Source: an uncultured bacterium (GTDB taxonomy: Bacteria > Verrucomicrobiota > Lentisphaeria > Victivallales > UBA1829). From it: a DNA stretch of 64,000 bases. The notes beneath the pieces were generated by a model that saw only the letters and a list, made by a program, of their open reading frames with translations, searched no databases and was not told where the DNA came from. The translations under genes were made by a program, and so were the position numbers. Positions within the stretch are counted from its first letter, which is position 1, and every line of letters begins with the position of its first letter. The stretch lies in assembly GCA_902762495.1 (NCBI GenBank), contig CACWOL010000004.1:1-64000 (forward strand). The letters are read 5' to 3'. This document shows, in pieces, positions 45,146 to 50,009 of this stretch.

Positions 45146-48100
45146 TTAACGATTTCTGGGCGGAAGCGTGATGATGGAGCCGGTAACGGGCTGACCGTCA
45201 CGGAGCTTGTCGGCGTTCTCGCGGGCAATCTCCTGCGCGCGGGAACGGTCCCCGAGCTGGGATTCCGCGATGTCCTCCAGCGTCTCGTTTGCGCGCACCT
45301 GATACATGCGGGAAACGTCGGGGGCCGCGCCGCCTCCAAAACCGCCGACCGGACGGTCATCGACCACGGGGTTCTTCGGCGGATAACGCCGTTCAGGTTC
45401 CTTCGGAGTGACCTTGGAGCCCTTCGTGGTCACGGTAGCGACGTCAACCATCTCGTCGCGGGTGGCGAGGCGGAACATCAGGGTCTCGCTCTTTTCCTCG
45501 GGACGCCCGAAGTCGGTCACGATCTCGGCGTAGAGGGTCACGGGGCCGATCATCTTCTGCGCGCGCTGCCCGTAGTAATGCGTCTTGATCCTGTAGTCGC
45601 CGTTCATCGCGTTGCGGACCATGAACTCCTCGGGGCCGTAGCCCTGCGTGATATCGAACGAGTTGCGGCCGCCGTTGGTGGTCAGGCGGTGCTGGTAGAA
45701 GCACTCCTCGCCGGTCGGGTCGATCGTGTGCAGGTCCATGTCGGACATGTCGGTGTCCCAGCCGATGGTCACGCGGAGGTCCATTTCGAGCGGATGCACG
45801 AGGCGGGAATCGATGTCCTTCAGCTCAATCCCGGCGCGTTTCGCCTTCACGATGAAGTTGTTCAGCTCGGTGATGGCGATCAACTCCACGTCGCGGAACC
45901 GTCCGTCCGGCTTCTTCACGATCGCGTTCAGCATCATGTCGGCGGCCTCCTGCCAGCGTCCCGCGTCGGCGAACACGAGCGCGAGGTCGCGGTAGGACTG
46001 CGGCTCCTCGGGAGCGAGTTCCAGCACCTTGCGGAACACGGTTTCGGCGGCATCGAGTTCGCCGAGGTATTTCAGGTTGTAGCCGAGCACGCGCAGGAGC
46101 ATGCGATTTTCGAGCTGCATTTCGGCGAGGTTGGAGACCACGCGGATCGCGAACTCACGCTGGCCGTTGCGGGCGAAATAGTCCGCGCAGTCCACGAAGA
46201 ATCCGAGATTGTCGGCGTTCTCCTTCTTCGCGCGGAGTTCGAGATAGCGTTCCTGCGCCTTGTCCTTCGCGTCTTCGAGTTCCTTCAGGTAGGACGCGCC
46301 GGAAGTCCACTGGTTCAGCTTGATGGACTTGGATGCGCCGTTCGACGAGGAATCGGATTTCTTCGCGGAGGGGGCGCGCTCGAACGAGGCGTCGGCTTCC
46401 ACCGCCATTTCCATCACGGGCATGGCGTCCATGGCCATGCCGTCTTCCATGTCGCGGCTGGCACGTTCCCTGCGTGCGGCGCCTCCTCCGAACCCGCCGC
46501 CGAAGCCGCCTATGCCGGGAGCAGCACCGCCGGCCGCGCCGCCGAAACCGCCCATGCCGCCGGCCGCGTTCATCGGACGGATGCCGCCGCCACCGCCGAA
46601 GCCGCACTTGAAGACGGGATCCGGTCGTTTCTTGCCGTCGTACCAGTCGATGATCTCGCTCTGATAGCGTTTCGCAAGCTGGTCGATGCGTTTATCCTGT
46701 TCGGTCGCGGCATCGGCTTTCTCCTTTGCCTTGTCCTTGGCGATCTGCGCCTGGCGTTCGTCGTACTGGGCGCGCCATTCGGGCAGCGTCTCGGGCGGAC
46801 GGATGCTGTATTCGAGGTACTGGGAGAGGCTTTCGAGCACGAGCATGGAGGTGCCGGGCGTCACGAGGCCGTACGTCTGGCCGAGCGTGAGGAATTCGGA
46901 CGGCGTGGTCTTCGGGTTGCGTTTCGCCTTTTCGAGTTTCAGCATGCCGTAGAGCGTGCGGATCATCCTGCCGTCGACCGCGGCGGCGGAATCCAGGTCG
47001 AACGCCATCGCGGGCAGTCCGGCGATCTTCACTTCAAGTTTGTGCTTGCCGTCGGGGAACGTCCCGGCGATCCTGACCGCTTCCCCGGAACGCGACACTT
47101 CGTAATCTGCGTCCGCGCCGTCGATCTTTACGGATTCGAGCGCGGCAGGATTCCCGGCGAGGAAACTTGCGAGCGCCGCCGCGGGCGTCATGCGCGCCAG
47201 ATTCAGGTACAGGGCGTTCGCGCCGGACGCGTCGGCGAGGTATTCGAGGTAGGACGTCTCGGAGGTCGTGGAGACGGAGACGAACGCGGTGCGGCCCTTC
47301 GCGGCGGGGATGTTCTCCGCGCCCTTGCCGAAGGTCTGGATGCCGTCTGTGAAGACGAACGCGCAGGCATCGGCGGGGACCGCGGCGAGGAACTTCTCCA
47401 GCCCGAGGAAGTCGGTACCGCCGTCGCATGCGGTCTTCTTCAGGAAGTCGAGCAGCGCGGACGCGTCACCGTTCTTCACTGTGAACGTCTTCGCGGGCTC
47501 CAGCGTGTTGCGGAGCACGGACACATTGACGTCGACCGTCGCGCCTTTCATCTTGTCCGACGCGAAGAACTGTTTCAGCAGTTCCAGTTCGGGCGCGTGG
47601 TCGTTCGAGGCGCGGGACCCCGAGGCGTCCCACAGAACGGAGACGGATTTCGGCGTCTTGAAATCGGCGGCGTTCGTGGCGGCGGAAATGGTCGCGGAAA
47701 CGAGGAAGAAGTTTTCGCCGCCGAAACGCTCGGTCTGCACGGGCGCGGGCTTGTCCGCCACGGTGATGCGGAGGTCTTCCGGCAGGGCGATGTTCTCAAG
47801 CGTGCGTTCGCCGAGCAGGGCGTTTTCCCATCGCTCGAAATTCAGGTTCGCGAACGGCGCGGACTCGACCTGCGGCGCGGCGGCGGGATCCATGACCTCG
47901 ACGCGGATGGACGCTTTTTCAAGCTCGTTCTCAAAGCGCATCGGCAGCGTGAAGATCGGCGTGCCGTCCACGCGGTCTACCTCGGAGATGAACGTGATGC
48001 GGATGCGGCGGCTGCCGCGTGCCGGAATCGGATAGATGCGCGTGCGGTAGCTGTTGCCTCCGACGGACTCAATGAGCGCAGGGTCCGCGCCCTTGCGTTC

Positions 48101-49516
48101 GATGGCCTCGAAGACCTCCTGCGCGCGCTTCTTTTCCACGATGGCGGCATCGATCATCTTGCCGTTGATGTCCAGCGCCGCGCCGGTCACGGTGGCTCCT
48201 GCGGGCAGAGGCAGCGTGAATTCGCCTTCCAGCGCGAGCGGGTTCGGATTGCTCACGACCGCCTCGAACTCCGTGCTGGCGATCTCGCCGCGGATGCGGA
48301 CTTTCGCCGAGACCTCGGACACGACGACCGGGACCAGTTTCGGGTCGGCCGGACGCGGCGGAGGCAGGATGCGGATCGGGGGCAGGATCACGCGCGGTTC
48401 GACGAACGGACGCGGACGGAGATACAGGTCTTGCGTTTCATTCATGGTTCTTGCTCCTTTTGTTCCTCCCGCGGCCGCAAGTGCCTGCGTCGCGGCAATT
48501 TTCATCTGGGGTGCGGATTCTTCCTTTGCAGCTGCACCCGGTTCGGAATTCGTATCGGCAACGGCATTTTCCGGCTGAATCGTTCTGGCACGCGCATCAC
48601 GAGCGGGAGCAGCGCCACCGCCGAAACCGCCGCCGAAGCCGCCAGCGGGAGCAGCACCGCCACCGAAACCGCCACCGAAACCACCGAAGCCACCGGCAGG
48701 ACGATTACCTCTAGCAACACCGCCACCAAAGCCGCCGAAGCCGCCAGCGGGAGCAGCACCGCCACCGAAACCACCGAAGCCACCGGCAGGACGATTACCT
48801 CCAGCAGCACCGCCGCCCATCGGAGGCAGACCGCCGCCGAAGCCGCCCATACCGCCGGCAGGACGATTGTCTCCGGCAGGAGCAGCATCGCCTGCGGGAG
48901 CGGCACCGGCAACAGCCCCGCCGTCGGCAGGAACAACACCCCCGACGAAGGCATCAGCAGCAGGAGCAGCGGCCTCGTCAGGTTCGGGATCGACAACGGC
49001 CATTCGGCGCGCATTCACTGCGGGCGCGACATTATCTTCGCGCGCCAAAGCCATAGAAGCGGCGACCATCCCGCCGTCAAGCGATGCGCTTGCCTCCGCA
49101 GATTCCCTGTTATCCAGCATGGACATAAGGACCACCGATTCCGGCTCATTTTCTGTCGCTTTCGCTTTCATCAGGTTCGCGCCGTATGCGGCAGGAGTCT
49201 GCGCTTCAACGACCGTGTCGACGCCCGGCATGCCGTAGTTGTCGCTGCGGATCGCGGACGAATCGTCCTTCAGCGTGGTGAGCACGAGCTGGAAGGCCAG
49301 GAGGCAGACCGCGACGCCTGCCGCGGCCTTCCAGATCATGGGGAAATGAGGGCGTTCCTGCGCCTTCGCCGCCGCGAAGAAACGGTGTGTGAATTCGTCT
49401 TCCGGTGTGTAGATGCCGGACTGTTCGCGGACGTCGTGGCGCTCCTTCAGCTTCTGGAGCAGAGCGTCCAGGTCGCGCGCGCCGTTTTCGTTGCTGTCGG
49501 TGTTATGCTTCTTCAT
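45146..49516 (-). CDS. Giant membrane VIT/vWA protein with TPR, DUF2135 and LysM; probable anti-sigma module at N-terminus
   Basis: The protein has 1456 residues. A polar N-terminus (1-58) and a membrane segment (about 61-81, AAAGVAVCLLAFQLVLTTL) resemble a zinc-less anti-sigma factor. A Gly/Met/Pro-rich repeat follows (205-312). The VIT domain (395-512) precedes a vWA domain (about 615-790) with an intact MIDAS (LWDASGSRA). A second Gly-rich stretch (970-1012), TPR-like helices (1114-1202), a DUF2135 domain (1243-1358, VTIGWDTDMSDMDLH) and a C-terminal LysM-like domain (1404-1456, YQVRANETLEDIAESQLGD) complete it. ATG 49516 is supported by GGGAGG at eight bases and lies 14 bases inside the sigma gene, so the two are coupled. 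The extracytoplasmic part could sense or bind peptidoglycan or a metal-dependent partner and release the sigma factor. Confidence 0.88.
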   Translation of the reverse strand: MKKHNTDSNENGARDLDALLQKLKERHDVREQSGIYTPEDEFTHRFFAAAKAQERPHFPMIWKAAAGVAVCLLAFQLVLTTLKDDSSAIRSDNYGMPGVDTVVEAQTPAAYGANLMKAKATENEPESVVLMSMLDNRESAEASASLDGGMVAASMALAREDNVAPAVNARRMAVVDPEPDEAAAPAADAFVGGVVPADGGAVAGAAPAGDAAPAGDNRPAGGMGGFGGGLPPMGGGAAGGNRPAGGFGGFGGGAAPAGGFGGFGGGVARGNRPAGGFGGFGGGFGGGAAPAGGFGGGFGGGAAPARDARARTIQPENAVADTNSEPGAAAKEESAPQMKIAATQALAAAGGTKGARTMNETQDLYLRPRPFVEPRVILPPIRILPPPRPADPKLVPVVVSEVSAKVRIRGEIASTEFEAVVSNPNPLALEGEFTLPLPAGATVTGAALDINGKMIDAAIVEKKRAQEVFEAIERKGADPALIESVGGNSYRTRIYPIPARGSRRIRITFISEVDRVDGTPIFTLPMRFENELEKASIRVEVMDPAAAPQVESAPFANLNFERWENALLGERTLENIALPEDLRITVADKPAPVQTERFGGENFFLVSATISAATNAADFKTPKSVSVLWDASGSRASNDHAPELELLKQFFASDKMKGATVDVNVSVLRNTLEPAKTFTVKNGDASALLDFLKKTACDGGTDFLGLEKFLAAVPADACAFVFTDGIQTFGKGAENIPAAKGRTAFVSVSTTSETSYLEYLADASGANALYLNLARMTPAAALASFLAGNPAALESVKIDGADADYEVSRSGEAVRIAGTFPDGKHKLEVKIAGLPAMAFDLDSAAAVDGRMIRTLYGMLKLEKAKRNPKTTPSEFLTLGQTYGLVTPGTSMLVLESLSQYLEYSIRPPETLPEWRAQYDERQAQIAKDKAKEKADAATEQDKRIDQLAKRYQSEIIDWYDGKKRPDPVFKCGFGGGGGIRPMNAAGGMGGFGGAAGGAAPGIGGFGGGFGGGAARRERASRDMEDGMAMDAMPVMEMAVEADASFERAPSAKKSDSSSNGASKSIKLNQWTSGASYLKELEDAKDKAQERYLELRAKKENADNLGFFVDCADYFARNGQREFAIRVVSNLAEMQLENRMLLRVLGYNLKYLGELDAAETVFRKVLELAPEEPQSYRDLALVFADAGRWQEAADMMLNAIVKKPDGRFRDVELIAITELNNFIVKAKRAGIELKDIDSRLVHPLEMDLRVTIGWDTDMSDMDLHTIDPTGEECFYQHRLTTNGGRNSFDITQGYGPEEFMVRNAMNGDYRIKTHYYGQRAQKMIGPVTLYAEIVTDFGRPEEKSETLMFRLATRDEMVDVATVTTKGSKVTPKEPERRYPPKNPVVDDRPVGGFGGGAAPDVSRMYQVRANETLEDIAESQLGDRSRAQEIARENADKLRDGQPVTGSIITLPPRNR

Positions 49517-50009
49517 AAGATACCTCCCGGATGGATTGGGCCAGTAATTGTTTCGCTTTGTGGATCCTCTGGTACAACGTGTTGCGAGTACAGCCCAGCA
49601 TCGCGGCGGCCTCGTCCGGAGCGTATCCGGAAAGAACCCCGACCGACAACGATTCCCGGTAGAGTCTGGGGAGGCGGGCAACGGCTGCATCCAGCCGGTC
49701 CAGCAGGCTCGCTTCCTCGGCTGCCTCGCCGGACGCTGCGCCCGATTCCCCGTAATCCGCCAGGACTTCGTGTTCCCGGGCACGATCACGCACCATGTCG
49801 TAGCACACGTTGATCAGGATTCTGGTCACCCAGGTCGCGAACTCCGACTGACCGTGGAACCCGGCGTACTTCCGCCAGGCGGTCATCAAAGCCTCCTGAA
49901 CGGCGTCGTCAACGTCCGCCGGGCTGCCGAGGATCCGCATCGCGGTCCCACGGAGCAGTCCGAGCTTCTCTCTGATCAGCTGTTCGAAGACCTGTTCTCT
50001 GGTTTCCAT
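49503..50009 (-). CDS. ECF-type RNA polymerase sigma factor
   Basis: This 168-residue sigma-70 ECF protein has region 2 (DVDDAVQEALMTAWRKYAGFHGQSEFATWVTRI, partly quoted; about 32-65) and region 4 (LPRLYRESLSVGVLSGYAPDEAAAMLGCT, helix-turn-helix about 110-150). The two are joined by an Ala/Glu/Ser-rich linker. It directs transcription of an envelope-related regulon. It is coupled by a 14-base overlap to the giant VIT/vWA membrane protein, which therefore is its likely anti-sigma or sensor. No clear -35/-10 is seen upstream. Confidence 0.93.
   Translation of the reverse strand: METREQVFEQLIREKLGLLRGTAMRILGSPADVDDAVQEALMTAWRKYAGFHGQSEFATWVTRILINVCYDMVRDRAREHEVLADYGESGAASGEAAEEASLLDRLDAAVARLPRLYRESLSVGVLSGYAPDEAAAMLGCTRNTLYQRIHKAKQLLAQSIREVSYEEA

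Follow-up and report, generated by a model that had tools for sequence, protein, structure and literature searches.

A conserved extracytoplasmic function sigma factor with a giant, inter-alpha-inhibitor-like predicted anti-sigma factor and a predicted protease-inhibitor regulon in rumen Lentisphaeria

Results

An ECF sigma factor gene overlaps the gene of a giant membrane protein

We analyzed a window of 64,000 nucleotides (the whole stretch of DNA studied here; contig CACWOL010000004.1, assembly GCA_902762495.1, from an uncultured bacterium of the Victivallales), in which a gene for an extracytoplasmic function (ECF) sigma factor is joined to a gene for a giant membrane protein, very probably its anti-sigma factor as judged from sequence comparison (Table 1). 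The sigma gene product matches TIGR02937 (1.2e-22, above cut-off) and contains sigma regions 2 and 4 with regions 1 and 3 absent (Pfam, over 168 residues), the composition that defines an ECF factor. The start of the giant gene overlaps the sigma stop by 14 bp (ATGAAGAAGCATAA), as had been noticed in an earlier interpretation made from the letters of the window (the sequence-only reading). The protein begins with about 58 cytoplasmic residues and one transmembrane helix, followed by a Gly-rich tether and by VIT, vWA, TPR, DUF2135 and LysM-fold modules, of which DUF2135 is present as a single copy in the whole genome. The sequence-only reading had listed about 60 cytoplasmic residues, one membrane helix, an intact metal ion-dependent adhesion site (MIDAS), DUF2135 and a LysM-like end, all of which were recovered by Pfam, alignment, structure modeling or comparison with a homolog.

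Table 1. Features of the sigma/anti-sigma locus (positions in the window).
Feature	Position	Strand	Details
ECF sigma factor	49503..50009	-	168 aa, ATG start; Pfam Sigma70_r2 1.2e-17, Sigma70_r4_2 3.7e-8
Giant anti-sigma factor (predicted)	45146..49516	-	ATG, 1456 aa + stop
Shine-Dalgarno GGGAGG of giant gene	49523..49528	-	Within sigma gene; kept in relatives
Cytoplasmic anti-sigma domain (predicted), residues 13-53	49358..49480	-	Two predicted helices; F42, F46 invariant
Single transmembrane helix, residues ~61-81	49274..49336	-	Hydrophobic stretch; AlphaFold2 helix 59-78
Gly/Ala/Pro-rich tether, residues 83-370	48407..49270	-	Length-variable
VIT domain, residues 400-509	47990..48319	-	Pfam PF08487 5e-23
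vWA domain with MIDAS	47147..47656	-	Alignment; Foldseek to ITIH1 and vWA structures
TPR region, residues ~1061-1215	45872..46336	-	Pfam TPR models 4e-6 (best; about residues 1141-1206; under its curated cut-off) and weaker; helical repeats in model
DUF2135 core, residues 1305-1350	45467..45604	-	Pfam PF09906 1.3e-11
LysM-like end, residues 1405-1452	45161..45304	-	Pfam E 0.18; homolog match; fold in model
Predicted autoregulatory ECF promoter, CTAAGATTT-N14-GTCTAA	50037..50065	-	Two conserved blocks; sole match in window

The genus to which the window belongs is represented by rumen metagenome-assembled genomes labelled Lentisphaeria or Victivallales, with no cultured representative among the records. 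The sigma-giant pair was present in every genus genome whose contigs allowed the locus to be read, and the 14-bp overlap was identical in all core-genus genomes with a readable junction; in the divergent genome G006 both genes are present and the giant gene begins about 75 bp after sigma. Sigma orthologs are 81-89% identical within the genus and 52% in G006. Residues 1-60 of the giant protein have a mean identity of 86% and a ratio of nonsynonymous to synonymous substitution rates (dN/dS) of 0.21, that is, they are under purifying selection, and the transmembrane helix is 92% identical (dN/dS 0.09), whereas the tether is only 61% identical, with 22% gaps and a dN/dS of 0.47. Because residues 1-60 are so much better conserved than the linker, chance is excluded. 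The giant gene was read whole in part of the genomes, two being cut at the locus and G012 containing a frame break. This break (L010 / L159) lies in the Gly-rich part and is either an assembly error or real.

The N-terminal head recurs beside homologous sigma factors

Other genera of the order contain homologs of the sigma factor (37-53% identity). In nearly every case the following gene has its start -11 to +6 bp from the sigma stop, and its product begins with the same head, in which a first helix with LDxLL is followed by EFxxxFF. Residues F42 and F46 were invariant in 22 aligned head sequences, and mostly one transmembrane helix follows. Behind the head we found three kinds of outer part: short (190-226 aa, no Pfam match), YfbK-type vWA (vWF_A-VWA-YfbK_C, about 580-650 aa) and giant. 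In two relatives, sigma and anti-sigma lie in one frame with a two-residue linker. The gene of an ECF anti-sigma factor is expected to be joined directly to its sigma gene and to be kept so in relatives, and this is the arrangement observed here. Since homologous sigmas of many other genera are likewise followed by this N-terminal domain, we conclude that the gene beside sigma very probably encodes its anti-sigma factor. The sequence-only reading had held that a separate anti-sigma gene in relatives would speak against this role; small anti-sigma genes were indeed found, yet they share the head, with no gene lying between them and sigma, and thus support it.

In the tree of sigma factors the giant-bearing genus weakly forms one branch (78/17; single origin in 76% of bootstraps), which is sister (95/92) to three YfbK-type members. 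Modeled alone with AlphaFold2, the head and membrane segment gave helices at residues 13-32 and 39-53 and a transmembrane helix at 59-78, at low confidence (pLDDT 66, pTM 0.29). This predicted two-helix head is compatible with, but not proof of, a CnrY-like class II domain, in which two helices take the place of a three-helix bundle and a fourth helix. The HxxxCxxC signature of the class I (zinc) anti-sigma domain was absent from the giant protein and from the 22-row head alignment; class I domains also include zinc-less members (PMC7406223). The FecR and zinc-finger types of anti-sigma factor were ruled out for the window protein, in which neither is present.

Large anti-sigma candidates are found elsewhere in the phylum. 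Of 20 Verrucomicrobiota loci with YfbK proteins (L323-L342), 17 have an ECF gene followed immediately by a head-YfbK fusion; the fusion proteins are about 520-920 aa long and mostly carry other, classical heads. FecR-type heads are fused to VIT proteins immediately after an ECF gene in L101 (G138, 3014 aa) and L109 (G077, 3155 aa), and a third such fusion, L034 (G046), extends for 984+ aa before it is cut by the contig end. Judged by their predicted domains, these FecR-head proteins are a separate lineage of giant VIT anti-sigmas, and putative anti-sigma factors whose outer part contains a vWA domain recur in the phylum and are no lone oddity. We therefore rejected the idea that the giant anti-sigma is unique, and the statement of the sequence-only reading that known anti-sigma factors are much smaller does not hold for this phylum. 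Three head-YfbK proteins (L274, L276, L278) have no clear transmembrane helix, and their vWA part might be cytoplasmic.

The outer part resembles inter-alpha-inhibitor heavy chains

Although no Pfam vWA model reached E 1 against the giant protein of the window, its structure model matched vWA folds in Foldseek, and Pfam, alignment and Foldseek together identify a VIT domain followed by a vWA domain with a complete MIDAS. All MIDAS residues (D630, S632, S634, T701, D724) are present and were invariant in a 9-row alignment, except for variants of the S634 region in outgroups (DASLS in G024). The model of residues 379-1456 had a pLDDT of 82 and a pTM of 0.79, and it ends in a LysM-type beta-alpha-alpha-beta fold (pLDDT ~84-95), for which the Pfam match is weak (12.2 bits vs a cut-off of 20.9). 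The top PDB match of the outer half was inter-alpha-inhibitor heavy chain 1 (ITIH1; E 8e-22, 588 columns, 14% identity). The YfbK models PF12450 and PF12034 matched neither the window protein nor anything else in its genome.

A scan of species-representative genomes yielded 77 loci with relatives of the outer part, in Bacteroidota, Pseudomonadota, Acidobacteriota, KSB1, Campylobacterota, spirochaetes and other Lentisphaeria. Among those with a readable start, the outgroup proteins have a signal-peptide-like N-terminus in place of the anti-sigma domain and transmembrane helix, with no closely linked ECF gene upstream of any of them. In G024, of the same family, the homologous gene is 46% identical with an unchanged domain order including LysM (Pfam 4.6e-11, 42.9 bits); it encodes a signal peptide, has no sigma gene, and lies 46 bp after a gene for a 2001-aa alpha-2-macroglobulin (A2M). 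Because the outgroup outer parts appear to be secreted without a sigma factor, the genus carries a fusion of the predicted anti-sigma head onto a secreted protein. Thus the VIT/vWA/TPR/DUF2135 part is, by its predicted targeting, an ordinary secreted protein elsewhere and is carried on an anti-sigma factor only in this genus. In Duganella and Pseudoduganella (L216, L218, L219, L220), the VIT/DUF2135 gene is followed, after about 0.7 kb, by an ECF gene in convergent orientation.

A two-block promoter motif precedes protease-inhibitor genes

Upstream of sigma, two blocks, CTAAGATTT and GTCTAA, are conserved in 11 genus genomes, with constant spacing and a variable spacer sequence. A strict first pattern made from these blocks gave exact copies at other sites across the genus, including serpin genes in five genomes, and its reversed control gave none. 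At many inhibitor genes the two blocks recur with a spacer of 13 nt or with GACTAA as the second block, and the pattern was widened to CTAAGATTT-N13/14-GWCTAA after these targets had been seen, so that the strict pattern provides the cleaner test. The widened pattern (CTAAGATTTN{13,14}GWCTAA) occurred at 72 sites in 12 core genomes, with ~0.24 expected, and the reversed-control pattern at 0 sites in every genome, by which we rejected chance as the origin of the motif. It had 0 sites in G006, which also lacks a serpin and whose sigma has diverged to 52%. Among the 7 sigma70-region-2 loci in the window's genome, this sigma locus alone has the motif, and it is absent beside the other six. Because the sigma gene itself carries the motif, as expected of autoregulation, and the motif is missing in the genome with the diverged sigma, this sigma is likely to read the CTAAGATTT-GWCTAA promoters.

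Downstream of the 72 sites we read sigma itself (11), serpin type 1 (11), serpin type 2 (7), a triple chagasin (I42) protein (6, plus 4 genomes with one or two mismatches), A2M (3, two read directly and one assigned by position in the window's genome), a transmembrane Pro-rich protein (9) and a repeat-domain protein (4). Protease inhibitors thus follow 27 of the 61 non-self sites (18 serpins, 6 triple I42, 3 A2M), and among the targets read we recognized no cell-wall enzymes. Within the genome that contains the window, inhibitor genes follow 4 of the 6 non-self sites (p ~1e-9, with 8 inhibitor genes known and ~2300 genes assumed); without the A2M gene that was not read through, 3 of 6 sites remain (p 5e-7). 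A protease-inhibitor regulon is therefore a strong prediction from the promoter motif.

Several of these targets have features of their own. The triple chagasin proteins (L382, L385, L464) contain three I42 domains each, which to our knowledge is unusual for bacteria. The recurring Pro-rich target (L379, L381, L388, L390, L392 and others) is 150-210 aa long, with an N-terminal transmembrane segment and the motif ATPYxPGTVPGDSGV. A repeat of about 95 aa (VNGKPWxDLxKPFELGFTPD) with almost no Pfam match occurs in large proteins of the predicted regulon and also follows serpin type 2 (L373, L375 C-terminus, L376, L387 C-terminus, L389, L462).

Discussion

Our results describe a sigma/anti-sigma switch that probably detects protease attack and turns on a defence. 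We propose, with moderate confidence, that the envelope anti-sigma factor reports such attack and switches on the protease-inhibitor regulon. In this view the giant single-pass anti-sigma would anchor the ECF sigma factor at the membrane through its short N-terminal domain, and its outer part would be an inter-alpha-inhibitor-like (VIT-vWA) protein acquired by capture, with TPR, DUF2135 and LysM modules. Proteases attacking the envelope would provide the signal by cutting the exposed tether or, alternatively, by engaging a partner inhibitor such as A2M on the vWA domain. The anti-sigma would then be inactivated, probably by stepwise proteolysis involving an M50 site-2 protease, a gene for which is present in the genome, and the freed sigma would transcribe its own operon together with the two serpin types, the triple chagasin and A2M. 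The sequence-only reading had proposed a direct envelope sensor in which metal- or peptidoglycan-binding domains control sigma. The anti-sigma role is upheld by the homologous heads that follow homologous sigmas. For the signal, control by metal or peptidoglycan found no support here, and both the fold and the predicted regulon favor protease attack.

A gene for a CPBP intramembrane protease (50892-50113) lies just upstream of sigma, has the motifs EExxxR, FxxxH and HxxxN, and is kept in the core genus. As a candidate release protease it was set aside as a weak link: the gene overlaps an M32 peptidase gene, and no CPBP match was found beside sigma in G006 or in other genera.

How the outer part might perceive proteases is suggested by analogy. 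Complement component C3 is a member of the A2M superfamily. Human heavy chain 1 (HC1) binds C3 via its MIDAS and inhibits C3 cleavage (PMC7170535). Taken with the A2M neighbor in G024 and with A2M in the predicted regulon, this interaction suggests that the ectodomain may read the state of A2M. A dedicated anti-protease response, in which the ITIH-like ectodomain either monitors its former operon partner A2M or is itself protease bait, and which controls three unrelated inhibitor classes, is a tentative extension of our proposal.

Several observations weigh against a protease-responsive switch. Targets are unread or unassigned at 21 of the 72 sites, and the recurring Pro-rich and repeat-domain targets are without assigned function. 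The motif is missing at some inhibitors (serpin3, single-domain I42), the C-x-E-Q thioester motif is absent from the A2M homologs in the stretches read, orthologous sites are not independent of each other, and the isolated head domain is predicted at low confidence.

The same anti-sigma and regulon could also serve a mechanical or cell-wall signal, with LysM (peptidoglycan) and vWA (metal, adhesion) sensing envelope strain and the inhibitors forming part of a general envelope response. The LysM-like end and intact MIDAS would suit such a role, and the closest sigma relatives join the same head to a YfbK-type vWA, so that vWA, and not ITIH ancestry, may be the common sensor. We nevertheless consider this rather unlikely, given that the targets read include protease inhibitors and no recognizable cell-wall enzyme, and that the short anti-sigmas of relatives have neither vWA nor LysM. 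A different possibility is that the giant protein is an anti-sigma factor but that a different sigma, either housekeeping or a second ECF factor, reads the CTAAGATTT-GWCTAA promoters and also transcribes the operon. TAAGAT resembles a −10 box, and TTGAGA precedes it by 17 bp in several genomes, and other sigma factors are available in the genome (7 sigma70-region-2 loci). By contrast, conservation in two blocks around a variable 13/14-nt spacer is ECF-like, and the motif accompanies none of the six remaining sigma genes and is lost in G006, where this sigma has diverged, which makes such a reader improbable. That the giant is an envelope protein merely co-transcribed with sigma, its 58 residues being only a signal anchor, would fit the outgroup proteins, which are secreted wherever the N-terminus is readable and have no tightly linked sigma, but is very improbable, because the head has homologs at the start of proteins that are unrelated in their other parts and are encoded next to homologous sigmas and, being found in some proteins without any transmembrane helix (L276, L278), is more than an anchor.

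Anti-sigma domains of classes I-III and the proteolytic release of sigma factors have been reviewed (PMC7406223, PMC8103513), and in CnrY two helices bind sigma4 and sigma2 (PMC7406223). The locus resembles CnrH-CnrY of Cupriavidus in architecture: the two genes adjoin and overlap, and a short cytoplasmic domain, predicted here at low confidence to form two helices, is joined to a single transmembrane helix. CnrY, a small protein, relies on CnrX as a separate sensor, whereas here the sensor would be a fused ectodomain of about 1370 residues. With RseA/RpoE it shares a single-pass anti-sigma, likely proteolytic release and an autoregulated sigma, but the anti-sigma domain and outer part differ, and the predicted targets are protease inhibitors where RpoE controls porin and lipopolysaccharide quality. 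The head-YfbK proteins of Verrucomicrobiota also have an anti-sigma domain, usually a transmembrane helix, and a vWA ectodomain encoded directly after an ECF gene, and some share this head and sigma family; they differ in their YfbK-type vWA, their length (520-920 aa) and their lack of VIT, TPR, DUF2135 or LysM. Secreted VIT-vWA-TPR-DUF2135 proteins (Capnocytophaga, Lysobacter, Victivallales and others) correspond to the whole outer part at 26-47% identity, but have a signal peptide, no anti-sigma domain and no tightly linked ECF gene. ITIH1 has the same VIT, MIDAS vWA and hybrid-type fold (PMC7170535) but is a eukaryotic serum protein with no TPR, DUF2135, LysM or signaling role, and is only 12-14% identical. 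The resemblance to inter-alpha-inhibitor heavy chains is thus one of fold only, and covalent transfer to hyaluronan or bikunin is not expected in a bacterium.

In the largely open-access literature, in which the main 2021 ECF classification was not covered, we found no system linking VIT, YfbK or DUF3520 to sigma factors; the largely open-access literature likewise yielded no anti-sigma system with a serpin or macroglobulin and no description of ECF genes with head-YfbK vWA fusions. Serpins, chagasins and alpha-2-macroglobulins are widespread in bacteria, and we know of no dedicated signaling system that controls the three together.

In conclusion, the locus is real and conserved, and it appears to represent a new form of ECF/anti-sigma signaling in which an ITIH-like predicted sensor is coupled to a putative regulon of protease inhibitors. 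It would belong to an anti-sigma family that retains its predicted sigma-binding end while different outer sensors (short domain, YfbK vWA or ITIH-like giant) have replaced one another. One promoter motif ties three inhibitor classes to an anti-sigma factor whose predicted sensor resembles a vertebrate inhibitor, so that the way in which bacteria may notice protease attack becomes directly testable.
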